Below are positions 8,933 through 63,830 of a stretch of DNA of 64,000 nt, piece by piece (within the stretch, counting starts at the first letter, position 1; each line of letters starts with the position of its first letter). Location: NCBI GenBank assembly GCA_012842605.1, contig DUSN01000090.1, forward strand, positions 1 to 64,000. Reading direction: 5' to 3'. The notes under the pieces are model-generated. The model made no database searches, had not been told where the DNA came from, and saw only the letters and a list, made by a program, of their open reading frames with translations. This DNA is from Clostridiales bacterium (lineage in GTDB: Bacteria; Bacillota; Clostridia; Caldicoprobacterales; DTU083). A program made the translations under genes and the position numbers.

Positions 8933-11509
8933 TTATATGTCCTGCCCGTCTTCTTTATTTTCCGCACGCTCCAGCAGCCTGTCCAAAGAGGTGTCAAATG
9001 GCATTAAATTATCCCGTTCTTCGCTTTCTTCTTCCTGCCTTTGATTTTCACCTGAATCTTCTTCATCAGGCACTTCGTCATCCTCTTTCTTTGCTTTGGC
9101 TACTGAAACAATATACTCATTATCTTCCATCCTCATTAAGGTAACTCCTTGAGTATTTCGGCTCATCCTTGATATTTCATTGGTATCTATCCGGATAATG
9201 ACACCTTCTGAATTAATCATAACCAGATCTTCTTCGCCGGTTACCACCTTCAAAGCTGCAAGACCGCCGGTTTTTTCGGTGATATTCATGGTTATGATTC
9301 CCTTTCCACCCCTGCTCTGAGAACGATATTCCCCTTCAGGAGTGCGCTTTCCGTATCCCTTTTCACTGATTGTCAGCACATCTGCATCCTTTTTGATTCG
9401 TTCCATATCTATCAGGTAATCATCACCCTGAAGCTCCATACCCTTTACACCCATTGCGGTACGACCCATTGCTCTTACGTCACTCTCGTGATAACGGATG
9501 GACAATCCGTTGCGGGATGCCATTATGATCTCTTGATTTCCATCAGTTAGAACTACTCTTATAAGCTCATCTTCTTCACGCAGTGTTATAGCAATAAGTC
9601 CTCCTTTACGGATATTGGAGAATTCCTTTAAGGATGTCTTTTTTACCAATCCCTTGCGGGTAGCCATGAATAAATAAAGATCTTTTTCAAAGTGCCCATC
9701 CTTAACAGGTATAAAAGCCTCTATCCTCTCGCCCGGATCCAGCTGCAGCAGGTTTATGATTGCTGTTCCCTTTGCCTGACGTCCGGCTTCCGGTATTTCA
9801 TAAGCCTTAAGCTCATACACCTTTCCTTTGGAAGAGAAGAACAGCAGCCGCTGGTGGGTGGAAGTCACAAATAAGTCTTTTACAAAATCCTCTTCTTTGG
9901 TTTGAAGACCGGTAATGCCTCTGCCTCCACGGCGCTGAGCCCGATAAGTGCTCAGGGGAGTGCGCTTTACATAGCCATAATGGGTTAAGGTAATCACCAC
10001 ATCATGCTCATCGATCAGGTCCTCAATGTCAATTTCGTCTTCTTCTGCTGCAATTTCCGTTCTTCTGGGGTCATTGTACTTATTCTTGATTGCAGTTAAT
10101 TCATCCTTGATAATTCCTAAAAGCATGCTTTCATTTGCCAATACATCCTTAAGGTACTGAATTGTTTTTATCAACTCTGCATATTCCTCTTGTATTTTCT
10201 CCCGCTCAAGACCTGTCAGTCTTTGCAGGCGCATATCCAGTATTGCCTGAGCCTGCTTTTCTGACAGGCTGAAATTAGCCATCAATCCCTCTTTTGCAAT
10301 CTGTGTAGTCTGAGAACTGCGGATCAAGTTAATTACGGCATCAATCTGATCCAGGGCAATAAGCAAGCCTTCCAAAATATGAGCCCTTGCTTCAGCCTTC
10401 TCCAGATCATACTTAGTCCGCCTGGTAACAACATCCTTCTGATGATTTATATAATGTGTCAGGATTTCCTTTAAATTCATAACCTTGGGCTGGTTGTCCA
10501 CCAAAGCCAGCATAATTACGCCAAAGGTATCCTGCAGCTGAGTATGCTTGAACAGATAGTTCAATACAATATTTGGGTTAACATCTTTCTTAATTTCAAT
10601 GACAATGGACATTCCATTGCGGTCTGACTCATCGCGGATGTCTGATATTCCATCAACTCTTTTATCTTTAACCAGATCGGCAATTTTTTCAATCAGCTTT
10701 GCTTTATTGACCTGGTAGGGAATTTCATGGACAACGATGCGAGACCGGTTATTGGGCATTTCCTGAATTTCTGTTTTTGCCCGGACAACCACCCGGCCCC
10801 TGCCGGTGCGGTATGCCTCGCGGATGCCGGATTTACCCAGTATAATTGCTCCTGTAGGAAAATCCGGGCCTTTAATTATCTTAATAAGATCTTCTATATC
10901 CGCCTGCGGATTATCAATGAGAGCTATAGTTCCGTCTATTACTTCTCCCAAATTATGAGGAGGTATATTGGTAGCCATGCCTACTGCGATGCCGGAAGAA
11001 CCGTTTACCAGCAGGTTCGGGAATCTTGACGGCAGGACTACAGGCTCTTTAAGGGATTCATCAAAGTTCGGCATGAAATCTACGGTTTCCTTGCCGATGT
11101 CAGCCAGCATTTCTGTTGTAATTTTCGCCATGCGTGCTTCGGTATAACGCATGGCTGCAGCTGAATCCCCGTCTACCGAACCAAAATTGCCATGACCGTC
11201 TACCAGCGGATATCGAATGGAGAAATCCTGTGCCATACGCACCATGGCATCATAAACGGCAGAATCGCCATGAGGATGATATTTACCCAAAACATCACCG
11301 ACGATTCTTGCTGATTTTCTATATGGCTTATCAGCAGTCATTCCCAGTTCATACATTGAATACAGGATCCGCCTGTGAACAGGCTTCAGGCCGTCCCTGA
11401 CATCCGGGAGGGCCCGGCCTACAATTACACTCATGGCATAATCAATATATGACCTTTTCATTTCATCTTCAAGATTTACATCTATAATTCTTTGATTCAA
11501 CGGTTCCAT
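8933..11509 (-). CDS. gyrA: DNA gyrase subunit A
   Basis: Breakage-reunion subunit of gyrase, which introduces negative supercoils ahead of the fork. The 858-residue protein has the catalytic Tyr122 in AMRYTEARM, and the quinolone region [11 protein letters not shown] with Ser83 and Asp87 in E. coli numbering, i.e. the usual sensitive residues. A GyrA-box QRRGGRG near residue 523 and six beta-pinwheel blades follow. The C-terminus ends in an acidic Asp/Glu-rich tail of about 50 residues. It lies 51 bases after gyrB on the same strand in the origin cluster. Confidence 0.98.
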
Positions 11510-37097: not shown

Positions 37098-39044
37098 ATG
37101 AATGCTGTTTTTAAAATGTATCCGACAGTTATAACCCCATTTAATCAGGAGGGTGACATAGACTATAACTCTTATGAGAAATTAATTGATCTTTTTGCCG
37201 GAAACGAATGTGATGGCTTGTTCGCAGTTTGTCAATCCAGTGAAATGTTTTATTTGTCCGAGGAAGAGAAATTGCAGCTGGCTGGCTGCAGTGTCAGGCT
37301 ATGCAGGGAGAAAAATATAAAATGTGTTATTTCAGGTCATACACAGGACACACTTTATGAGCAAATTGCATATTTGCAAAAAGCAGAGCTTCTGGGAGCA
37401 GATGCTCTGGTACTGGTATCCAACAGACTTGCAGCAGAGGACGAGAGCGATGAAATCTTAATAGATAATTTAAAATATATAATAGATCACCTGAAACCAG
37501 GTACCAGGCTGGGAATTTATGAGTGTCCGTATCCATACAAGCGGCTGCTGACACCTAAGGTTCTTGATTTTATAGCCTTATCGGGCAAATTTGATTTTAT
37601 CAAGGATACATGCTGTAATATTGAGTTAATCCGTCAACGCATCTGTCAATTGAAGGGAACATGTATAGAACTGTACAATGCCAATGCTGCAACACTGGTT
37701 GACAGTTTTCTGGCCGGTGCCGCAGGATATTCAGGAGTAATGCTGAATTTTATACCAGAGCATTTTAAGAAGCTAAAGAAATACCTAAGCACTGTATGTT
37801 CAGCCGGAGAACCTGCTGCATCCTTTAATCCGAGAACTGCCAGGTGGATAAGTGATTTTATAACAATGGCCAGTGTCTATGAGTATCAGTGCTACCCCCG
37901 TAATGCTAAGTATTTTCTGGTGCAGCGTGGGATTATTGCTGCTGATTTGGTACGAGACAAGCAGAAAGCTCTAACTGAAACCCAATGCAGGGAGTTAAAG
38001 GCTTTTGCTAATACTGCGCGAAGCAATTTGGCCCAATTAGGACCTTTTTCCAGCCCGGAGCTTATATTCCCTGAGAATACTTATTTCCGGAATTGTCATG
38101 CTTCTACTGTGCTGCCCCTTGAAGACGGAACGGTACTTGTTGCTTATTTTGCCGGTACTGAGGAGGGAAACCCTGATGTGGGAATCTGGCTGTCCCGCAG
38201 GGTAAACGGTGAGTGGCAGGAGCCTGTTCAGATAGCAAAGACCGAGCAGACTGCACATTGGAATCCGGTATTGTTTAAGACTGCTGACGGCATACGTATT
38301 GTATATAAGGTTGGGAAAGACATTTCTACATGGAAGAGCCGAACCATGGTGTCCAGGGATAAGGGGAAAACCTGGTCGCAGGAGGCATGCTATCCGCCGC
38401 CCAATGATGCCTGCGGTCCTGTTCGCAGCAAGCCACTGCTTATGAGCAATGGAAGGCTGCTGGCTCCTAATTCTGACGAAAAGGACGGAGTATGGCTGCC
38501 AAGGGTAGATGTGTCAGATGATTATGGAGAAAGCTTTAAATTGCTTTCGAAAATCAGCATAAACAGAACCAATCCTAATGAGCCTGACTACATAGAAGGA
38601 GAAGGGGCTATTCAGCCTACACTTTGGGAAAGTGAGCCCGGGCATATCCATATGCTGCTGCGCACTTCCTGCGGATATATCTATCGTTCAGATTCGGAAG
38701 ACTGGGGAGAAACATGGTGTCAGGCATACAATACTTATCTGCCAAGCAATAACAGCGGGATAGAAGCAGTATCTCATGGTAAAGAGCTGTATTTAATATT
38801 TAACCCGGTATCAGGAAACTGGGCTGCCCGTACACCTATTGTTATTTATAAATCCACAGATAACGGATTAACGTTTGATCATTTTATGACTCTTGAAAGC
38901 AGGACATTTGACAATAATAACTTTATAGCCGAATTTTCATATCCTGCTGCAGTTGTATTGGATGACACCTTATATGTCACATATACTTATATGAGGCGTC
39001 AGATAGCTTTTCACCAGATTTTCCTGGGAAATTCTAATACTTAA
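37098..39044 (+). CDS. Fusion of neuraminate-lyase/DHDPS-like aldolase and BNR sialidase-like domain
   Basis: A 648-residue cytoplasmic protein (no signal peptide) with two catalytic-type domains. Residues 1-300 form a DHDPS/NanA-type TIM barrel: the Schiff-base lysine is K169 in FIKDTC, the tyrosine is Y141 in YECPYP and the pyruvate-binding loop is CQSSEM (45-50, versus GGSTGE in NanA). Residues 315-648 form a BNR_2 propeller: RNCHASTVLPLEDGTVLVAYF opens it (longer motif, positions about 330-350), and Asp-boxes SRDKGKTW, SDDYGESF, SEDWGETW and STDNGLTF follow. The first is an aldolase or lyase family for 2-keto acids, the second a glycosidase or lyase family. The substrate of either half is inferred, not shown. 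Confidence 0.8.
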   Translation: MNAVFKMYPTVITPFNQEGDIDYNSYEKLIDLFAGNECDGLFAVCQSSEMFYLSEEEKLQLAGCSVRLCREKNIKCVISGHTQDTLYEQIAYLQKAELLGADALVLVSNRLAAEDESDEILIDNLKYIIDHLKPGTRLGIYECPYPYKRLLTPKVLDFIALSGKFDFIKDTCCNIELIRQRICQLKGTCIELYNANAATLVDSFLAGAAGYSGVMLNFIPEHFKKLKKYLSTVCSAGEPAASFNPRTARWISDFITMASVYEYQCYPRNAKYFLVQRGIIAADLVRDKQKALTETQCRELKAFANTARSNLAQLGPFSSPELIFPENTYFRNCHASTVLPLEDGTVLVAYFAGTEEGNPDVGIWLSRRVNGEWQEPVQIAKTEQTAHWNPVLFKTADGIRIVYKVGKDISTWKSRTMVSRDKGKTWSQEACYPPPNDACGPVRSKPLLMSNGRLLAPNSDEKDGVWLPRVDVSDDYGESFKLLSKISINRTNPNEPDYIEGEGAIQPTLWESEPGHIHMLLRTSCGYIYRSDSEDWGETWCQAYNTYLPSNNSGIEAVSHGKELYLIFNPVSGNWAARTPIVIYKSTDNGLTFDHFMTLESRTFDNNNFIAEFSYPAAVVLDDTLYVTYTYMRRQIAFHQIFLGNSNT

Positions 39045-39178: not shown

Positions 39179-40588
39179 ATGGCGAAGAAACCCAATGTAG
39201 TATTTCTGTTTTCAGACCAGCAGCGATGGGATACTGTAAGCTGCTATGGTGAGCCTTTAGGCGCTCATTTTCAATTAACCCCGAATATCGATCAACTGGC
39301 ACAAGAGGGCACCCGCTTTAACAATGCGATAACCTGTCAGCCTGTTTGCGGTCCTGCCCGTGCATGCATCCAAACAGGCAAATATCCGACAGCAATTAGA
39401 TGTCATACCAATGACAGGATGCTGCCTTTGACTGAGAAAGGAATTGCCCATTACTTTAATGAAGCCGGGTATGAGACAGCATATGTCGGGAAGTGGCATT
39501 TGGCATCCAACCATTCCTTTGTCCATCCGCCGAAGCCTGATACATTCAACTTCAAAACTACTGCTGTTCCGCCGGAGTTCAGGGGAGGTTATAAGGATTA
39601 CTGGATGGCAGCAGATGTGTTGGAGTTTACATCCCATGGATATGGCGGATATGTGTTTGACGGGGACATGAACAAAAGGGAGTTTACAAAATACCGTGCG
39701 GATGCCATTACTGACTTTGCTCTTGAGTACCTGGCAAGACCGAAGGATAAGCCGTTCTTCCTGTTTGTTTCCTACATAGAACCCCATCATCAGAATGACC
39801 GCAACTGCTTTGAAGGCCCGAAAGGTTCTAAGGAAATGTTCAGGGATTTTCCTGTGCCCGGAGATTTAGCGGGTACAGGCGGTGACTGGAGGGAGCAGAT
39901 GCCGGATTATCTTGGCTGCTGCAAGAGCCTGGATGACAATGTAGGGCGTATAGTACAGGCATTGAAGGAAAGCGGTGAATATGAGAACACGGTAATCTTC
40001 TATACCTCTGACCATGGCTCACACTTTAAAACTCGCAACAGTGAATATAAACGTTCATGCCATGACAACAGTGTAAAGGTTCCATTAATTGCAAGAGGAC
40101 CGGGTTTCCAGCGAGGATGTGTTGTTGACAATCTCACCAGCCTTATCGATATTGCTCCCACTCTCCTGGCTTGTGCCGGCATTGAAAAGCCTGTATACAT
40201 GCCGGGTACCCCCTTGCAGCAGCTTTCGATGAATCCGGATGTTCCAATCCATGATGAAGTATTTATTCAGATCAGCGAAAGCTGCATTGGCAGAGCGCTT
40301 CGCACCTTGGATTATACATACTGTGTGGAAGCACCAATTACTAATGATGACATGGATGAATATAAAAAAGGAATGCCTTATGACGGTTGGGAGGACAGCC
40401 CCCTGTCACAGCCGGCAAGTGATTTATATGTTGAAAAATATTTATATGATTTAAAAAAGGACCCTTATCAGAGATTCAACCTGGTGAAGGATCCTCAGTA
40501 TGCAGAGATTCGCAGTATGTTAAGAGAGAAACTAAAGCAGTGCATTTTGAAGGAAGAGGGCTTGACTGCAATTATACCGGAAGGCTGA
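39179..40588 (+). CDS. Cys-type sulfatase (formylglycine-dependent)
   Basis: A 469-residue sulfate ester hydrolase without signal peptide. The start MAKKPNVVFLFSDQQRWDT has the metal-binding SDQ at 12-14. The modification motif is C57-G-P-A-R61 in CQPVCGPARACIQTGKYP, where Cys57 becomes formylglycine. GKWHLA and YTSDHGSHF supply further active-site residues. Being Cys-type in an anaerobe, it would need a radical-SAM maturase (anSME), which is not in this window. It is downstream of the fusion gene on the same strand, and was probably acquired as part of a glycan locus. The substrate is unknown. Confidence 0.9.
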   Translation: MAKKPNVVFLFSDQQRWDTVSCYGEPLGAHFQLTPNIDQLAQEGTRFNNAITCQPVCGPARACIQTGKYPTAIRCHTNDRMLPLTEKGIAHYFNEAGYETAYVGKWHLASNHSFVHPPKPDTFNFKTTAVPPEFRGGYKDYWMAADVLEFTSHGYGGYVFDGDMNKREFTKYRADAITDFALEYLARPKDKPFFLFVSYIEPHHQNDRNCFEGPKGSKEMFRDFPVPGDLAGTGGDWREQMPDYLGCCKSLDDNVGRIVQALKESGEYENTVIFYTSDHGSHFKTRNSEYKRSCHDNSVKVPLIARGPGFQRGCVVDNLTSLIDIAPTLLACAGIEKPVYMPGTPLQQLSMNPDVPIHDEVFIQISESCIGRALRTLDYTYCVEAPITNDDMDEYKKGMPYDGWEDSPLSQPASDLYVEKYLYDLKKDPYQRFNLVKDPQYAEIRSMLREKLKQCILKEEGLTAIIPEG

Positions 40589-42691: not shown

Positions 42692-42981
42692 TTATTCGTG
42701 TGCAAACTCAAGTCTATTATTTTTTATATTATCAGGCTATTAGAATACTCAAAGTATTTGAATAGTTTTGTTTATATTCAAATTACCAGATGCAAGGCAG
42801 CAACGTGACTTGTAAACACTCTACTGTCTTAATTAATAGTGATTTTAGTAGAGATTCTGATTAAATAATCCTACGGTTTTATGAATAATAAAAATTTAAT
42901 GGTTTACTACCTGGATGAAATTGCATAATATTGGCAATTATTCGAAAGCTTATTAAAAATAAAAAACAAGGGGGATTTAAA

Positions 42982-45900
42982 ATGAAAGCAATGCAAAACA
43001 AAGTCAAAAAGCGAACTTTCTTTCGAGTGTTAAGTATGACGCTGGTGTTAACCCTTGGTTTGAGTTTATTTCAGCAGGTGCTGCCTTTCAGCTTTGCAGG
43101 CAGGGGCAATACTACTGCTCAGGCCATGGGTTCCGGAGAAAGAGAACGTCCGCTTGTAGGGGTCATTAACTATTCAGGTTTAACCGGACAGAACAAGACA
43201 TATGATGAAATCAGCCTGACACCTCCGCAGTTTAACCACCGGCTTCCTTTCTATGCGGTGCGTGAATATGACACAAGCCGCCTGGCCAGGAATGTCAATA
43301 CAGTTCAGGAGATTGTTTATTACTCAGAAACTGACATCACCAATGTGCGTATTTATGCTGCATTTGATGATTCCAAACCGTATGATGAAAACAATGATAT
43401 AAAAATCTTAACCTCACCTGACGGTATTACTTACACTGAAGCTCCTTCACCAGGTCTCTCAGGGAAAAGTGCCACTCCGATCAAAGGCGCAGAAAACTGG
43501 CAGAAGGTGAACATATCTTCTTCCTATGAATTTGGCATTCATTATGTTAAAATCCAGATTGCCAAAACTGATGATACTCCTCTCAACCCACAGATCATGA
43601 GAATAGAGTATTGGGTCATGAACGAAGAGAGGGATGACCTCATCCGCACTGTGGATAATTTAGATGATTTTTCAAAGATGCATTCCTATTCAGAAGGGTT
43701 AACACTTGTATCAGATAATCCTGAGAATTTTTTACTGGTAGCTGCTGACGATAATGAACCGGATATTGTGGCACAGCAGATTGCATATGCAAAAAGTGCT
43801 CAAATTGACTACATAGCATACCTGGACATGGAAACCAACTGGCATATGCCCTATCCTCGTGTATTTGATTTATTCCGTAAAAACCCGGACAAGGGGGATT
43901 TGAAGTACTGTGTGATTATGGGCGCTCCCACAGGCAATTATGAGAATTGGGAAAATCGTGTTGACCGTATTCTTGAATACTTTGCAGACAGCTTTTATGT
44001 TAGAGTACATGACAACAGGCCATTATTCTATATAATGAATATGAATAACTGGAGCAAATCTCATATTGACTATTTGCGCTCACAATCAATCGCTGCCGGG
44101 TTAGGCAACCCATATGTTGTTGGAATGACCAATCAGTCATACTATGCAGACTTTCTGGATGGAGCAAGCGATTATGCAGCTGTTGAGGCCGGTGTAGTCT
44201 ACAATTATGCCGGTACATCCAATACCATCCCACTGGTAAGCCTGGGCGTCAATGATGAGCCCCGGCATTTAAACCCGCCTTCATGGGGTGCGTGGGGACC
44301 AATAGAAGATCCGATTTCAACTGAGCAGCTAAAGAGTTATGTAAAAAGTGCAATGGATTGGACTGCAGCAAATCCGGATAAGAATCCAGCCAATACTATT
44401 CTGATTTATGCATGGAATGAGCATGCCGAGGCAGCATCCAACATAGAGCCGACTTTAAATTCAGACGGTACAATCAATACAGTTTATCTGGATGCGCTTG
44501 GTGATGCAATCAGCAGCTGGGATAATGAACCGGATGATCCGGACGAACCGGAAAATCTTCTATCTAATCCTGGTTTTGAGGAAGGGTTGACAGGTTGGTC
44601 GTGGCAGTCTGCTAATGTATCAATTACGACAGACAGTGTCAATTCCGGCAGCCGTGCTGCTTATGTATCCGGACGAACCGGGCAGTGGGGTTCTCCTGTG
44701 ATGAATGTGCTCCCCATAATGCAAACCAAAGGGCAGGGAGTTTACCGTTATGGTGCTTATGCACGATTTATCGGTGATGAAGATGATGTAACAATGATGC
44801 TTTATCTTGAGAGTACAGGAAATGGCCCGCAATGGTACAGCATTTGGCCGTCTGCCCATGTAGGCACAGAATTTACCAATGTATCGGGGCAGCGTGCAAT
44901 TACCTGGTCCGGAACACTCACCAAGGCTGAGCTATACATTCAAACAATTTCATCTACAGCTGATATGGTAGTTGATGACTTTTACTTTGGCTTTGTTACA
45001 GATGATATTACTGCTCCCAGTGCGATTACAGATCTGGCTGCAGGGGATCCGACCAGTTCTTCGTTAACTCTTACATGGACAGCGCCTGGTGATGATGGCA
45101 ATGTGGGGACAGCCGCAAGATATGACATTCGTTATGCCAGCTTTCCAATTGATGCAAGCAATGTTGAAGACAGTGGTGTAATTCAAATTACAAATCCTCC
45201 AACACCATTGGAGGCCGGAACCACACAGGAATTTACTATTTCCGGATTAGACCCGGATACAACCTATTATTTTGTGATCTTCGCTATTGACAATGGTGGT
45301 AATTATTCGCCTATTTCAAATACAGCAAGCGGGTCAACCATTGAATATATTGAAGGTACCACCAATCTTGCATTAACTGCTTCAGTTTCTGCTTCTGAAA
45401 CAGATGACGGATATTCAGCAGCAGGGGCAATTGACGGAAACACCGGTGATTTCCAGGGTTGGGCAACAAATCCCTTTGCTGATGACGATTGGCTGATGCT
45501 GGAATGGACAACTCCACAAACAATTAGCCGTGTGGATATTTACAGCACTACAGGATATCTGTTCAGTGGGTATACTATACAAGTCTGGGATGGATCCGGA
45601 TGGGTAGATATCATATCAACCGGCAATACTGATAAGCTCAAGACAACCAGGTTTTCTCCGGTAACCACAACAAAATTGAGGATTTTAGGTATGGCAGGTG
45701 ATATGTATGGTATTTACCGTATAGACGAAATTGAAGTTTACGGTGCAGCACCTCCCGAAGAAACAACAAACCTTTTAACAAATCCGGGTTTTGAAGATGG
45801 ATTGACTGGATGGTCGGGATTCGGCGGCACACTGAATCTGACAACTGATAATCCACATTCAGGCACATATGCAGCTTTGATAAGCAACCGCAGTGATGAC

Positions 45901-47304
45901 TGGCATGCATTATCCTATGATGTGCGATCCTTGCTCGAAGCAAATGGCCCTGGTATCTATCGATTCGGGATGCATGCGCGGTATCTTAGTGGAAGCGGGC
46001 AGGTATTCATGATCATTGATGGCGAAGCAGACAGTGGATTCTGGGCTGCCGGATGGCCTCTAACAGAAGTAGGATCAACTTATGTAGAAGTAGTGGCTCA
46101 GACTAAGGTTAACTGGACCGGATCAATTTCAAATGCAAGGCTGCGGTTTCAGACAATAGGAAACAATGCAGACATTGTGGTGGATGACTTTTTTATGGAG
46201 TATGTTTCCGATGACATTATATCTCCTTCTGCAGTGACTGATCTTGCAGTCAGTGAGGTTTCCGATACCAGTATAACCCTTACCTGGACCGCTCCGGGTG
46301 ATGATGGAGATGTAGGGACAGCTTCCGTATATGAAATCTTCTATTCTGATTCTCCTACAGGCGATGGTATTTTAATTGATAATCCACCGGTCCCACAACC
46401 GGCCGGATCAACACAGACTGTAACCATTACCGGACTTAACCCTGGTTCAACCTATTACTTTCACCTCTATACAGGTGATGAGGTTGGAAACTTCTCATCA
46501 ATTTCCAATAAGGTTAGCGGTGTTACCACAAACACTGCCCAGGACAATGCGGACATATCAGCAGCCAAGGGAACAATAGAAGCTGCATTCCCGGCAAGCG
46601 GAAGCCAGGAGGACATTGATGACATAGAAGCTGCCCGTGCAGCAGTAGAGGCTATTATAGCAGAACTTGATCTCAACGGTGTAACAGCTGAAGTGGAGGA
46701 CGGCACGTTCACTGCAGCAACAGCGGGTACGGCAGCCTCACCGGCAGGTACAAACGGGAGCTACACATTTACAGTTAGTTTGAGCAAAGGTGCAGGCACA
46801 GCACAGACAACCGCCCTGCTGACATTCAATATTGAAGCCCTGCCCTATGACAATACCCAGGACAATGCGGACATATCAGCAGCCAAGGGAACAATAGAAG
46901 CTGCATTCCCGGCAAGCGGAAGCCAGGAGGATATTGATGACATAGAAGCTGCCCGTGCAGCAGTAGAGGCTATTATAGCAGAGCTTGATCTCAACGGTGT
47001 AACAGCTGAAGTGGAGGACGGTACATTCACTGCAGCTTTAGCGGGTACGGCAGCCTCGCCGGCAGGAACAGACGGGAGTTACACATTTACCGTTACTTTG
47101 AGTAAGGGTGCAGGCATAGCACAGACAACTGCCCTGCTGACATTCAATATTGAAGCCCTGCCTTATGAAAATGACTCTGCAGAAGATGGTAATGAGACAC
47201 CAAAAACCGGAGATACTGCATTTATCCTTATATGGTTGTTGCTTTGCATACTTGCAGCAGCGAGCGTTATCCGTATTAAATTACTTAAACAGGTGAAAAA
47301 ATAA
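42982..47304 (+). CDS. Cell-wall-anchored multimodular glycan-active protein (GH99-like barrel with CBMs)
   Basis: A 1440-residue secreted protein starting at the ATG at 42982 (AAGGGGGAT site). A long signal peptide is present (about 1-46, cleavage after AQA). Residues about 60-510 form a TIM-barrel-like domain resembling GH99/WbsX-type proteins (WHMPYPRVFDLF, NMNNWSKSHI, ILIYAWNEHAEAAS). Then come CBM4/9-like (NPGFEEGLTGW, about 530-670), FN3 (about 675-790), F5/8-type CBM32 (about 793-925), a second CBM4/9 (about 932-1070), a second FN3 (about 1075-1180) and two 106-residue repeats. TPKTGD with a hydrophobic helix and KQVKK tail ends the protein, a sortase-type anchor lacking the usual leucine. 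Exact enzyme activity is not established. Confidence 0.72.
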   Translation: MKAMQNKVKKRTFFRVLSMTLVLTLGLSLFQQVLPFSFAGRGNTTAQAMGSGERERPLVGVINYSGLTGQNKTYDEISLTPPQFNHRLPFYAVREYDTSRLARNVNTVQEIVYYSETDITNVRIYAAFDDSKPYDENNDIKILTSPDGITYTEAPSPGLSGKSATPIKGAENWQKVNISSSYEFGIHYVKIQIAKTDDTPLNPQIMRIEYWVMNEERDDLIRTVDNLDDFSKMHSYSEGLTLVSDNPENFLLVAADDNEPDIVAQQIAYAKSAQIDYIAYLDMETNWHMPYPRVFDLFRKNPDKGDLKYCVIMGAPTGNYENWENRVDRILEYFADSFYVRVHDNRPLFYIMNMNNWSKSHIDYLRSQSIAAGLGNPYVVGMTNQSYYADFLDGASDYAAVEAGVVYNYAGTSNTIPLVSLGVNDEPRHLNPPSWGAWGPIEDPISTEQLKSYVKSAMDWTAANPDKNPANTILIYAWNEHAEAASNIEPTLNSDGTINTVYLDALGDAISSWDNEPDDPDEPENLLSNPGFEEGLTGWSWQSANVSITTDSVNSGSRAAYVSGRTGQWGSPVMNVLPIMQTKGQGVYRYGAYARFIGDEDDVTMMLYLESTGNGPQWYSIWPSAHVGTEFTNVSGQRAITWSGTLTKAELYIQTISSTADMVVDDFYFGFVTDDITAPSAITDLAAGDPTSSSLTLTWTAPGDDGNVGTAARYDIRYASFPIDASNVEDSGVIQITNPPTPLEAGTTQEFTISGLDPDTTYYFVIFAIDNGGNYSPISNTASGSTIEYIEGTTNLALTASVSASETDDGYSAAGAIDGNTGDFQGWATNPFADDDWLMLEWTTPQTISRVDIYSTTGYLFSGYTIQVWDGSGWVDIISTGNTDKLKTTRFSPVTTTKLRILGMAGDMYGIYRIDEIEVYGAAPPEETTNLLTNPGFEDGLTGWSGFGGTLNLTTDNPHSGTYAALISNRSDDWHALSYDVRSLLEANGPGIYRFGMHARYLSGSGQVFMIIDGEADSGFWAAGWPLTEVGSTYVEVVAQTKVNWTGSISNARLRFQTIGNNADIVVDDFFMEYVSDDIISPSAVTDLAVSEVSDTSITLTWTAPGDDGDVGTASVYEIFYSDSPTGDGILIDNPPVPQPAGSTQTVTITGLNPGSTYYFHLYTGDEVGNFSSISNKVSGVTTNTAQDNADISAAKGTIEAAFPASGSQEDIDDIEAARAAVEAIIAELDLNGVTAEVEDGTFTAATAGTAASPAGTNGSYTFTVSLSKGAGTAQTTALLTFNIEALPYDNTQDNADISAAKGTIEAAFPASGSQEDIDDIEAARAAVEAIIAELDLNGVTAEVEDGTFTAALAGTAASPAGTDGSYTFTVTLSKGAGIAQTTALLTFNIEALPYENDSAEDGNETPKTGDTAFILIWLLLCILAAASVIRIKLLKQVKK
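46540..47169 (+). repeat. Tandem 318-bp in-frame repeat
   Basis: Two copies with a period of 318 bases (106 codons), starting at 46540 and 46858. They are almost identical at DNA level (QDNADISAAKGTIEAAF in both), with synonymous and a few non-synonymous differences in the second half. A recent duplication that lengthens the stalk of the wall protein. Confidence 0.92.
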
Positions 47305-48574: not shown

Positions 48575-49780
48575 ATGACGAAGTCATATTCGAATGTTTA
48601 TGAGGAATTATACACTTACGCTAAGACTTTACCGGTAATTAATACCCATTCTCATCATATGACATCAATTGATCAAACCTATAATCTGGATACTATTTTA
48701 AGGTCATCTTATGTGAATTGGTGCGGCGTGTCATTTGGCGATACTTCAGAAAGCAGACGCCAGTTCCTGGAAATAGTGAGATTCAACTCATACTTTGTTT
48801 GGCTTGAAAAAGGAATAATGGATATATATGACCTTGATGAGCCTATAACCGAAGAAAACTGGGAAAAAGTATCGGATATTATAAACAAGGCGAACCAAAA
48901 TGACAAATACCACCTAAAGATCCTTAAAGAAAGATGCAGATATGAAAAAATTCTTCTTGATGCGTATTGGAACCCGGGATCAAATAACAATTCCGACTTA
49001 TTTGCACGGGTTTTCAGAACAGATATGTTTTTTCATGGATACAGTTCGGGTTTAACAGACCACAACAGCAACTCTCCAGAGAAATATATTGGCTCGGGCA
49101 TTAAGGATATTGATGAATATATAGCTCGAATGAGGGATGCAATTACTATTAAGAAAAATGAGGGATGCATTGCCTTGAAATCAGCAATTGCCTATGAGCG
49201 CAGCCTGGATTTCAATGAGGTGCCGAAGGAAAAGGCACAGTATGCAATGACCTGCAAAAAAGATGACTTAACGAAAGATGACATAAAAGCCTTCGGTGAC
49301 TATGTGTTTTTCAATATTTGCCGGATTGCTGCGGAACTGGATCTGCCGATGCAATGCCATGTAGGTTTAGGAAGGCTTAAGGATACGAATCCAATGCAGA
49401 TGTGGGAAGTCATACATAAAAATCCGGACACCAGGTTTGTGCTGTTTCATGGCGGGTACCCATGGACGGATGAAGTTCTTGGTCTTGCACACAACTGCCG
49501 TAATGTGTATCCGGATATTTGCTGGCTGCCCCTTATTTCTACTTCAGCTGCCGAAAAGATGCTGATTGAGCTGATTGAAGTCAGTACCATTGATAAAATA
49601 TGCTGGGGTTGTGACACGTGGACTTCAGAGGAAAGTGCCGGTGCTCTTTTGGCAATGGAACATGTTCTTGCATCCGCTCTTTCAAAAAAGATTGCTGAAG
49701 GGTACCTTTCAGTTGATTTGGCTAAAGCTATTATAAAAAATATTTTATATAAAAATGCTAAATTGATATATAACCTGTAG
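48575..49780 (+). CDS. Amidohydrolase-superfamily protein (copy 1)
   Basis: A 401-residue metal-dependent hydrolase or isomerase of the amidohydrolase superfamily. The HxH metal motif is THSHH with H25 and H27; later QCHVGLG, LFHGGYPW and WGCDTWTSEE supply the other metal/active-site His and Asp. The closest recognisable architecture is the Amidohydro_2/uronate-isomerase-like branch. An ALKSAIAYERSLDF segment with Lys and Arg may bind a substrate acid group. It is first in a plus-strand operon of amidohydrolase-amidohydrolase-GH36-isomerase-oxidoreductase (48575-55481). Substrate unknown; a sugar lactone or keto sugar acid fits the context. Confidence 0.72.
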   Translation: MTKSYSNVYEELYTYAKTLPVINTHSHHMTSIDQTYNLDTILRSSYVNWCGVSFGDTSESRRQFLEIVRFNSYFVWLEKGIMDIYDLDEPITEENWEKVSDIINKANQNDKYHLKILKERCRYEKILLDAYWNPGSNNNSDLFARVFRTDMFFHGYSSGLTDHNSNSPEKYIGSGIKDIDEYIARMRDAITIKKNEGCIALKSAIAYERSLDFNEVPKEKAQYAMTCKKDDLTKDDIKAFGDYVFFNICRIAAELDLPMQCHVGLGRLKDTNPMQMWEVIHKNPDTRFVLFHGGYPWTDEVLGLAHNCRNVYPDICWLPLISTSAAEKMLIELIEVSTIDKICWGCDTWTSEESAGALLAMEHVLASALSKKIAEGYLSVDLAKAIIKNILYKNAKLIYNL

Positions 49781-49794
49781 AAAGGAGATCATTT

Positions 49795-51060
49795 ATGACA
49801 AACACTTTTCAGGAAATATTTGATTATGTAAAAGGAATAACGATAATTGACTCGCATGAGCATCTGCCTTACTGTGAGGATGCCAGAAAAAAAGACACCG
49901 ATGTTATTGAAGAATACCTGATTCATTACTTTGTTTGTGATTTAATATCTGCGGGGCTGGACCGCAAAGCATTGGAGCGGCTGCGAAGCGGAGACTTGTC
50001 TGTTATTGAGAAATGGGATATAGTTGAGCCTTTCTGGAATGCCTGCCGGTACACAGGCTATGGCAGAGCGCTGGACATATCAGCAAAAGCTCTCTATGGA
50101 ATCAGCAAAATATCCAGAGATACCATAGAAGAATTGAATGAGGCTTTTCAAAAGTCTTTAAAGCCGGGGCATTTTAAAAGAGTGCTCAAGGATATGTCAA
50201 AAATTGAGGTCAGCCTCCTGGATCAGTGCCTTGATTGTGATCCGGTATTTTTTAAGAGTGTCTACCGGCTGGACAGCTTTTTATTTCCCCGGAGCCGTAA
50301 GGACATTGAGGAAGTAGAAAAAATGCATCATGTTAAAATTCATTCTATGGATGATTGGCTGAAGGCTTGTGAAGAATCCTTGGATGAGGGTTTAAGAAGA
50401 GGGGCTGTGGCACTAAAGAGCGGAATTGCATATGATCGGACTCTAAGGTTTGAAAAGACTACATTGGATGAAGCCAGATCAAGTTTTAACCAGATATATA
50501 TGACTCCTGACAATCCGGGATGGAATCCAAATCCGGATTATCCAGGGAAGCCTTTTCATGATTACATGATGCATTATATTCTTAAGCTTGCCAACAACCG
50601 GGGATTGACTTATCAATTTCATACCGGACTGCAGGAGGGTAATGGCAATATCATTTACAATAGTGATCCGTCACTTTTGTCCAACCTATTCCTTGAATAT
50701 CCTGATGTGAACTTTGATATTTTCCATATAGGTTACCCATACCAACATAAGTTATCGGCCCTGGCAAAAAATTTCCCCAATGTATTCATTGATATGTGCT
50801 GGGCGCATATTATATCGCCTCAGGCCTGTGTTGATGCCCTGTGTGAGTGGATAGACTCAGTGCCATTGAATAAGATAACTGCATTTGGAGGGGACTATTT
50901 GTTCATAGACGCTGTATACGGCCACCAGTATATTGCAAGGGAAAATATCAGCAAATCTTTAGCTTATAAGGTGGAAGAGGGCATCTTTAATGCAGATGAA
51001 GCTAAGCATATAGCTAAGATGCTGTTTTATGACAATCCCAAGAGGATATTTAAGCTATAA
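49795..51060 (+). CDS. Amidohydrolase-superfamily protein (copy 2)
   Basis: A 421-residue paralogue of the upstream gene, 14 bases downstream with an AGAAAGGAGAT ribosome binding site. HEH at 21-23, YQFHTGLQEG, DIFHIGYPYQ and AFGGDYLFIDA parallel the first copy; ALKSGIAYDRTLRF matches its ALKSAIAYERSLDF. The overall similarity is recognisable but not high, so the two are probably ancient duplicates with different substrates or subunits of one enzyme. The protein has no signal peptide and should be cytoplasmic. Confidence 0.72.
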   Translation: MTNTFQEIFDYVKGITIIDSHEHLPYCEDARKKDTDVIEEYLIHYFVCDLISAGLDRKALERLRSGDLSVIEKWDIVEPFWNACRYTGYGRALDISAKALYGISKISRDTIEELNEAFQKSLKPGHFKRVLKDMSKIEVSLLDQCLDCDPVFFKSVYRLDSFLFPRSRKDIEEVEKMHHVKIHSMDDWLKACEESLDEGLRRGAVALKSGIAYDRTLRFEKTTLDEARSSFNQIYMTPDNPGWNPNPDYPGKPFHDYMMHYILKLANNRGLTYQFHTGLQEGNGNIIYNSDPSLLSNLFLEYPDVNFDIFHIGYPYQHKLSALAKNFPNVFIDMCWAHIISPQACVDALCEWIDSVPLNKITAFGGDYLFIDAVYGHQYIARENISKSLAYKVEEGIFNADEAKHIAKMLFYDNPKRIFKL

Positions 51061-53327: not shown

Positions 53328-54293
53328 ATGAAATTAGGTGTATTTGCAGTATTACTGGCGGACAAGAGTCTTGATGAAGCCTGTGCATATCTGGCTGCCC
53401 AGGGTGTTCAGGCTGTCGAAATCGGTACGGGAGGATATCCTGGCAATGCTCATTGCAAACCGGCTGAATTGCTGGGCGATGATGACAAGGTTAAGAAGCT
53501 AAAGGATACTGTTGAAAAGCACGGCCTGGAAATCTCCTGTCTTTCCTGTCATGGCAACCCGGTCCATCCCCAAAAGAACATTGCTGAAGCATTTCACAAG
53601 GATTTTGTTGATACCGTTCTGCTGGCGGAAAAATTAGGTGTGGATCGAGTTGTTACTTTCTCAGGATGCCCGGGTGATTCACCGGACAGCAAGTATCCCA
53701 ATTGGGTTACCTGCCCATGGCCGCCGGATTTTCTGGATGTCCTGGACTATCAATGGAATGAGGTTCTGATTCCATATTGGGAAAAGACAGCCAAATTCTG
53801 TCAGGATCATGGAGTAAACAGGATTGCTCTTGAAATGCACCCCGGGTTCTGCGTATATAATCCTGATACCTTATTAAAACTGCGAAGCGCTGTAGGGCCG
53901 GCTATCGGGGCTAATTTGGACCCCAGCCATCTGTTCTGGCAGGGAATGGATATTCCGACGGTAATCCGCAAACTGGGCAAGGCTATCTACTTCTTCCATG
54001 CCAAGGATTCTATCATAGATCCAATCAATAGTGCACAGAATGGTATTTTAGACACCAGGCATTATTCGGATGAAATCAACCGCAGCTGGCTTTTCAGGAC
54101 TGTTGGGTATGGTCACGGTTATCAGGTATGGAAGGACATATTCTCCAATCTGCGTATGGTTGGCTATGATGATGTGATCAGCATTGAACATGAGGACAGC
54201 CTGATGTCGGTTAATGAAGGATTAACAAAGGCTATAGCATTCCTGAAAGAAACCATTCCCTTTGAAACCCCCGGAGGAATGTGGTGGGCGTAA
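53328..54293 (+). CDS. Sugar phosphate isomerase/epimerase (xylose-isomerase-like TIM barrel)
   Basis: A 321-residue AP_endonuc_2-fold protein. The ATG follows AAGGAGG. Metal ligands are expected in ALEMHPGF (Glu), NLDPSHLFWQGMD (Asp, His), HAKDS (His) and ISIEHEDS (Glu), the typical Glu-Asp-His-Glu set. Members isomerise or epimerise sugars or act as keto-sugar lyases. The direct neighbour is a Gfo/Idh/MocA oxidoreductase, a pairing seen in inositol and 3-keto-sugar pathways. The exact reaction is unknown. Confidence 0.82.
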   Translation: MKLGVFAVLLADKSLDEACAYLAAQGVQAVEIGTGGYPGNAHCKPAELLGDDDKVKKLKDTVEKHGLEISCLSCHGNPVHPQKNIAEAFHKDFVDTVLLAEKLGVDRVVTFSGCPGDSPDSKYPNWVTCPWPPDFLDVLDYQWNEVLIPYWEKTAKFCQDHGVNRIALEMHPGFCVYNPDTLLKLRSAVGPAIGANLDPSHLFWQGMDIPTVIRKLGKAIYFFHAKDSIIDPINSAQNGILDTRHYSDEINRSWLFRTVGYGHGYQVWKDIFSNLRMVGYDDVISIEHEDSLMSVNEGLTKAIAFLKETIPFETPGGMWWA

Positions 54294-63077: not shown

Positions 63078-63830
63078 ATGTTAAGAGATTTTAGTTTAGA
63101 GAAGTTTGATATTATAATTCAGGCAGGGCAGTCGAACAGTGAAGGATGCGGGATAGGAAACGCTACCGTACCTTTTGTTCAAGGCCCTGATATTTTTTAC
63201 ATGGAAAATGATTTATCTATCTGTACAGCACATGAATATGTGTCGGGCAATTATATAATTGCGAACTTTTCACTATCCTTTTCCAGAAGGTATATGTCCA
63301 GCGGCTTTCTGGAACCCGGAAGAAAAATCTTAATTCTTAGAGCAGCAGTGGGAGGAACAGGTTTCAGAGACAAACGCTGGGGAATAAATGATGATCTGTA
63401 CTTAAAAATGGTTGAAATGACCAAAACAGCCCTGGAACTTAACCCTCAAAACAGACTGGCTGCTCTTCTGTGGCATCAGGGAGAAACTGATGCAATACTT
63501 AATGCCGGCAGACAGGAGCATTATGATAACCTGACCCAGATGGTCAACTCAGTCAGGAATACGTTTAACTGTCCGGATCTTCCTTTTATTGCAGGTGATT
63601 TTGTGAGTCATTGGAAAAACGATAACCTGGCAATTTGCATACCTGTAGTTGAAGCCATTAAGGATGTATGTGCCAGCGTAGGGTATGCGGCATTTGTTGA
63701 AACAGACGGGCTGACTTCCAATGCACAAGTGATTAACAATGATGATACCATTCATTTTTCAAGGGAAGCTCAATACCAGCTGGGAGATAGATATTTTGAT
63801 GCATTTGTCAGGATTAAAAATGCGAAATAA
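63078..63830 (+). CDS. Sialate O-acetylesterase-like (SASA/SGNH) carbohydrate esterase
   Basis: A 250-residue esterase of the SGNH hydrolase fold without signal peptide. The nucleophile block is IIIQAGQSNSEG with Ser19. LLWHQGETDA holds the family's WHQGE motif, and NNDDTIHFSREAQ supplies the catalytic His/Asp. The fold covers 9-O-acetylsialate esterases and plant-glycan deacetylases, so sialic acid is one option only. Probably co-transcribed with the next gene, 14 bases on. Confidence 0.82.
   Translation: MLRDFSLEKFDIIIQAGQSNSEGCGIGNATVPFVQGPDIFYMENDLSICTAHEYVSGNYIIANFSLSFSRRYMSSGFLEPGRKILILRAAVGGTGFRDKRWGINDDLYLKMVEMTKTALELNPQNRLAALLWHQGETDAILNAGRQEHYDNLTQMVNSVRNTFNCPDLPFIAGDFVSHWKNDNLAICIPVVEAIKDVCASVGYAAFVETDGLTSNAQVINNDDTIHFSREAQYQLGDRYFDAFVRIKNAK

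Follow-up and report, generated by a model that had tools for sequence, protein, structure and literature searches.

In the window (the whole 64,000-nucleotide stretch of DNA that was analysed) one gene joins an aldolase to a sialidase-fold propeller in a single intact open reading frame of 648 codons, from ATG to TAA. Its features, and those of the gene that follows it, are given in Table 1. A one-chain fusion of this kind had been claimed in the initial annotation. The claim is confirmed by the unbroken frame, by Pfam matches above the curated cut-offs to both DHDPS (PF00701, residues 8–231, E=1.4e-17) and BNR_2 (PF13088, residues 344–626, E=6.5e-57), and by a second fusion, of 644 aa, in a metagenome-assembled genome. 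The latter lies on a separate contig, DUOA01000005.1 (also G003:C168), and with the same fusion there an assembly artefact is ruled out. Both halves are under purifying selection, since comparing the two fusions gives a dN/dS of about 0.13 in the aldolase and of about 0.08 in the propeller. A further genome (G004) has the propeller at 80% identity on a contig that stops before the aldolase start would come. As the N-terminus is without a signal-like stretch, the fusion protein is taken as cytoplasmic. Scans for promoters and terminators gave no more than they did in shuffled sequence.

Table 1. Positions, in the window, of the fusion gene, its parts and the gene downstream
Feature	Position	Strand	Remarks
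Fusion gene	37098..39044	+	648 aa; single intact ORF; second fusion, 84% identical, in L022
Aldolase half, residues 1–300	37098..37997	+	Pfam DHDPS; invariant columns; model pLDDT 92
Tyr141	37518..37520	+	aligned with NanA Tyr137
Lys169, Schiff-base lysine	37602..37604	+	aligned with NanA Lys165
Sialidase-fold propeller, residues 313–648, 'CHAST' subfamily of BNR_2	38034..39041	+	Pfam; model pLDDT 87
His334	38097..38099	+	place of GH33 Arg1 (FRIP motif); invariant in 26
Glu356	38163..38165	+	invariant; near place of GH33 acid Asp, assignment tentative
Four Asp-boxes	38352-38375, 38514-38537, 38694-38717, 38853-38876	+	motif count
Gln506	38613..38615	+	place of GH33 catalytic Glu
Arg522	38661..38663	+	GH33 Arg2
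Arg578	38829..38831	+	GH33 Arg3
Tyr615	38940..38942	+	GH33 nucleophile Tyr
Sulfatase, possible partner	39179..40588	+	134 bases downstream of fusion; Pfam Sulfatase; intact CGPAR motif

The two halves were modelled separately with AlphaFold2, and the alignment used for the modelling left out plasmid-derived rows. Every one of the 50 best PDB matches of the aldolase barrel is an N-acetylneuraminate lyase or a variant of this enzyme, an engineered L-KDO aldolase being among the variants. As in NanA, the Schiff-base lysine and the tyrosine lie in an NAL/DHDPS barrel; they had been recognised at the outset as kept, and prove to be invariant in 26 of 26 relatives. By alignment Thr171 also matches NanA Thr167. 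The family to which this half belongs is marked by the motifs CQSSEM (residues 45–50) and YECPYPYKR (141–149). However, the Neu5Ac-binding D191, E192 and S208 of NanA are here Ala197, Ala198 and Val214, and in 29 relatives these columns have small or hydrophobic residues with neither Asp nor Glu among the common ones. The NCBIfam models for NanA score 17.5 and 22.4 bits against cut-offs of 382 and 281, and the curated dapA model 52.6 against 206.15 bits. The window's genome has no NanA above the curated cut-off.

The propeller model finds nearly all its best PDB matches among sialidases, along with 5hx0 (of unknown function), and superposes on GH33 structures with TM scores of 0.67–0.75. The BNR-type Asp-boxes noticed earlier, of the form S-x-D-x-G-x-[TS]-[WF], number exactly four (residues 419, 473, 533 and 586; shuffle mean 0.001), so that both fold and Asp-boxes are those of GH33. 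H334, E356, Q506, R522, R578 and Y615 are invariant in 26 propellers from Bacillota, Pseudomonadota and Bacteroidota. What had been expected of a sialidase site is thus borne out for the fold, two of the three arginines and the nucleophile tyrosine, but not for the catalytic Glu, which is Gln, nor for Arg1, which is His in 26 of 26. The Arg1 assignment comes from weak pairwise alignment, in which it is the commonest register (14 of the 26 members); in two members HAP stands in place of the RIP of GH33. The GH33-associated domain PF02973 had no match in the class, nor in the controls, and is hence uninformative.

These replacements bear on two readings. One is that of a sialidase fused to an N-acetylneuraminate lyase, with Neu5Ac being freed inside the cell and split to ManNAc and pyruvate. 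It would account for the sialidase fold, for NanA being the nearest aldolase fold with its Tyr and Schiff-base Lys kept, for a YhcH-type anomerase near some relatives and for the label exo-alpha-sialidase that PGAP gives the propellers. It is nevertheless very improbable, given the His and Gln of all 26 propellers, the absence across the aldolase family of the three NanA residues, the scores of the NanA models (17 to 22 bits), a genome without NanA above cut-off, and neighbours that are pentose kinases and pectin enzymes with none annotated as NanK or NanE. The other is that the propeller is a non-catalytic binding module that offers the aldolase a sugar acid, whether free or bound, as the loss of Glu and Arg at two key GH33 positions might suggest. 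This is highly doubtful, because neither replacement varies from phylum to phylum, and neither do Tyr615, Arg522, Arg578 and Glu356, which is an active-site-like pattern. In addition, purifying selection on the propeller is strong, and there are also propellers that have no aldolase with them but are joined to a rhamnosidase or lie next to glycosidases. The early proposal of an intracellular bifunctional enzyme for a 2-keto sugar acid is consistent with the architecture, the N-terminus and the conserved gene pairs beside uptake systems described next; its sialic acid version is not supported.

In other genomes the two halves are separate genes that are neighbours in the same order and on the same strand. 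This is so at three loci of the same taxonomic order or class within Clostridia (L025, L028 and L072), and the same order of genes is kept in Martelella (L093), Klebsiella (L092) and Proteus (L106), the tally of the pair being three phyla's worth of relatives plus the two fusions. Since the halves are adjacent in the same order elsewhere, the fusion merged a pre-existing conserved gene pair. The separate pairs adjoin uptake systems. Genes like either half are present in 5 other genomes of 398 sampled in the phylum and in 11 of 30 in the order. A BNR_2 propeller is immediately adjacent in 11 of the 24 separate loci of the CQSSEM aldolase family, and in 8 of these 11 it is from a second subfamily with an N-terminal extension. 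The window's genome has a single BNR_2 gene in 3.28 Mb, and at such a frequency these neighbours of the aldolase are not due to chance.

The members of that second subfamily (L082, L084-L088, L090, L091 and L033:8750-10183) are of about 440–460 aa, have an N-terminal fn3-like part, directly adjoin the same aldolase family and have, by alignment, Cys at the place of GH33 Arg1. [More distant BNR propeller genes are directly followed by genes for other DHDPS-family aldolases at L127:1392-3300 and L132:898-2684, and so pairing of a propeller with a DHDPS-type aldolase seems to have arisen repeatedly.]

The CQSSEM aldolase gene is also present, beside araC, in 576 of 5,426 complete E. coli genomes, about a tenth. 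The E. coli genomes have no DNA relative of the Klebsiella pair, though the aldolase is there. In NZ_AP018784.2 (L108:4743-9915) and at L097 it is accompanied by a ribokinase-like kinase with a DeoR-type HTH and by a tripartite tricarboxylate transporter. This kinase/aldolase/transporter operon, which in those 576 genomes sits between araC and yabI, may be one for Kdo uptake and breakdown.

What surrounds the aldolase in relatives is informative about its products. The operon of Klebsiella and Proteus encodes an FGGY kinase, a protein with a Fucose_iso_C match, the aldolase, the propeller and a transporter, and in Klebsiella this kinase scores 564 bits with the curated FGGY pentulose kinase model, above its cut-off of 408.7. 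The kinase adjoining the aldolase passes as L-ribulokinase at L089 and as ribokinase in Burkholderia (L102), and that of E. coli (L108) is one bit short of the ribokinase cut-off. With pyruvate as the second product, a pentose means that the acid being split has eight carbons. The gene after the aldolase in Pantoea and Salmonella encodes a protein of the YhcH family, to which E. coli NanQ, annotated as N-acetylneuraminate anomerase, belongs, and an anomerase-type neighbour suggests a cyclic ulosonic acid. Acid transporters are also among the neighbours. Kdo is the one octulosonic acid that is common; its aldol cleavage yields D-arabinose, on which L-fucose isomerases act. The pentose could be a different one (D-lyxose, D-ribose) derived from another octulosonic acid. 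The isomerase-like protein of Klebsiella has no sequence match in the PDB and no relative in the window's genome among the loci examined. In vitro, NanA-type enzymes form Kdo from pyruvate and D-arabinose (PMC4016182).

The surroundings of the propeller point to pectin, and within it to rhamnogalacturonan II (RG-II), in whose side chain C rhamnose is linked to Kdo. A Bacteroides homologue of the propeller shares its chain with a GH78 alpha-L-rhamnosidase and adjoins a GH140 apiosidase; close by are GH28, GH78 and GH65-type genes. The Monoglobus propeller is with GH51, GH106, GH95 and a pectinesterase, those of Clostridia are beside GH106, GH78 or GH95, and that of Rufibacter is accompanied by a polysaccharide lyase as well as a pectinesterase. 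An apiosidase-family gene is present in 8 of 11 genomes that have the propeller versus 30 of 280 others (Fisher p = 5e-6), and GH106 in 10 of 11 versus 33 of 280 (p = 2e-8), though relatives are not independent and the counts are inflated by the relatedness of the genomes. Of the RG-II side chains, C contains Kdo and D contains Dha (PMC6852159), and an RG-II Kdo hydrolase has been placed in GH33 (PMC11214529).

The RG-II-type clusters are around the relatives of the propeller, unlike what is seen in the window's own neighbourhood, where no rhamnosidase, isomerase or kinase adjoins the fusion gene. The window's genome has two apiosidase-family genes and, at 84% completeness, no GH106 match. [On another contig of that genome, C43 (L109:1266-2180 and 9164-10456), another DHDPS-type aldolase is clustered with a strong apiosidase-family gene and a pair of ABC permeases.]

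The same RG-II context would serve for Dha in place of Kdo, Dha being likewise a 2-keto-3-deoxy acid of RG-II (PMC6852159), and the extra basic residues of YECPYPYKR could hold its second carboxylate. Dha is nonetheless an unlikely substrate: the C4 product would give no role to the pentulose kinases, ribokinases and fucose-isomerase-like neighbours, and the rhamnosidase fusion of the Bacteroides relative fits Rha-Kdo rather than Araf-Dha. Rhamnosidase neighbours would equally suit a route in which Rha-GlcA glycans are attacked by the propeller, as a polysaccharide lyase or an enzyme of glucuronyl type, and KDG is split to pyruvate and glyceraldehyde by the aldolase. KDG aldolases are known in the DHDPS family, and some of the loci have an IclR regulator. 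Such a route is quite improbable, since the nearest propeller folds are sialidases with the Tyr and two Arg kept, the aldolase is nearest to NanA rather than to KDG aldolases, and KDG does not match the pentose kinases and anomerase-type proteins among the neighbours. As leads, then, sialic acid, Dha, KDG and the pseudo-enzyme were all dropped.

The reading preferred is that the fusion works in the cytoplasm and carries out two successive steps on a C8 ulosonic acid, of which Kdo is the likeliest; from context this is probable by a modest degree. It is favoured because independent lines of context, one from the glycan side and one from the product side, meet at an octulosonic acid, to which the option of another ulosonic acid in the initial annotation is thereby narrowed. 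Computation shows both folds, the residues that are conserved, a second fusion, a gene pair kept in other bacteria and, around relatives, genes for pentose kinases, rhamnosidases and apiosidases. From these we infer Kdo as substrate, cleavage of a glycosidic bond, a retaining mechanism and transfer between the sites.

On this Kdo reading, a rhamnosidase would take Rha off side chain C of RG-II, so exposing a terminal Kdo whose ketosidic bond the propeller half would then cut with Tyr615 as nucleophile. Arg522, Arg578 and His334 would hold the carboxylate in a modified sialidase pocket. With Gln506 replacing the GH33 Glu, Tyr615 would have to be activated otherwise than in GH33, perhaps by His334 or by an invariant acid such as E356 or E461. 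This activation is the least certain and chemically the most interesting step. The freed acid would pass to the aldolase half, where Lys169 would form a Schiff base with C2 and Tyr141 would move a proton, with pyruvate and D-arabinose as products. The pentose could then enter central metabolism by way of an isomerase and a pentose-type kinase encoded elsewhere in the genome. Being on one chain could hasten transfer of the sugar before its anomer changes, or may merely fix the ratio of the two activities.

Some features count against Kdo. The Glu to Gln replacement would mean, from the residues present, that the Tyr nucleophile is not activatable as in GH33. Another is the sulfatase 3′ of the fusion, RG-II not being known to carry sulfate. 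The immediate surroundings of the gene, lacking a rhamnosidase, isomerase or kinase, also weigh against it. In view of this sulfatase and of the lack of a GH106 match in the 84%-complete genome, it is possible that the glycan of the window's organism is a different one, Kdo-bearing or Kdo-like. A sulfatase 45% identical to that of the window is near a propeller gene at L075.

Some further genes of the window deserve mention in their own right. One, at 42931-47304, encodes a surface protein of 1457 aa with WbsX-like, carbohydrate-binding, F5/8C and fn3 domains and a PKTGD-type anchor, near whose C-terminus there are two near-identical repeats of about 100 residues. Two tandem amidohydrolase genes at 48575-51060 have partial similarity to uronate isomerase (UxaC), and a relative of theirs adjoins a second CQSSEM aldolase at L038. 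A TIM barrel of sugar-isomerase type (AP_endonuc_2; 53328-54293) is unusually conserved, with 67–70% identity in loci L033, L034 and L080, which hold an aldolase or a propeller as well. The gene at 63078-63830, which shares its stretch with an ABC sugar transporter, encodes a carbohydrate esterase of the SASA (sialic acid-specific acetylesterase) family.

The activity EC 4.1.2.23, Kdo aldolase, is in the list of orphan enzymes as one without a gene (PMC1940265). In the open-access literature, with subscription papers being outside the scope, no description was found of a DHDPS–sialidase fusion or of a Kdo aldolase gene. Already known are both folds, the mention of a Kdo hydrolase in GH33 and EC 4.1.2.23 as an activity. 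The CQSSEM aldolases are a candidate gene family for that orphan, and the relatives point to a candidate Kdo catabolic route, previously unrecognised, in many bacteria. The wider proposal, close to an even chance though somewhat short of it, is that the propeller subfamily with Arg replaced by His and Glu by Gln is a Kdo glycosidase of changed chemistry, that the CQSSEM family supplies the missing EC 4.1.2.23 across several phyla and in about one complete E. coli in ten, and that the two steps have been merged here. The fusion serves as a Rosetta stone: through it the group annotated 'exo-alpha-sialidase' is linked with the one annotated 'dihydrodipicolinate synthase family', and both with a single substrate that can be tested. 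Almost all Gram-negative outer membranes contain Kdo, as does plant pectin. If the wider proposal is true, many annotations would change, an orphan enzyme would gain its gene and Kdo would come to be recognised as a nutrient for bacteria of soil, plants and the gut.

With sialidases of GH33, the family in which an RG-II Kdo hydrolase is placed as well (PMC11214529), the fusion has in common the propeller fold, the Asp-boxes and the places of Arg2, Arg3 and the nucleophile Tyr. It differs in its residues for Arg1 and the catalytic Glu, in being (as taken here) cytoplasmic and in being joined to an aldolase. The aldolase half has the fold of NanA (TM 0.85), a member of the DHDPS superfamily, with equivalents of Tyr137, Lys165 and Thr167, but its Neu5Ac-binding residues are replaced and it has its own two motifs. 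The reaction predicted for it, Kdo to pyruvate and D-arabinose, is that of EC 4.1.2.23, an activity that is without a known sequence. The GH78-BNR_2 fusion of B. finegoldii (L095:2226-6092), in a pectin cluster and adjoining the GH140 apiosidase, has a homologous propeller, 33% identical and with the same invariant residues. There the propeller is joined to the enzyme of the preceding step, the rhamnosidase, whereas in the window it is joined to that of the following step, the aldolase.
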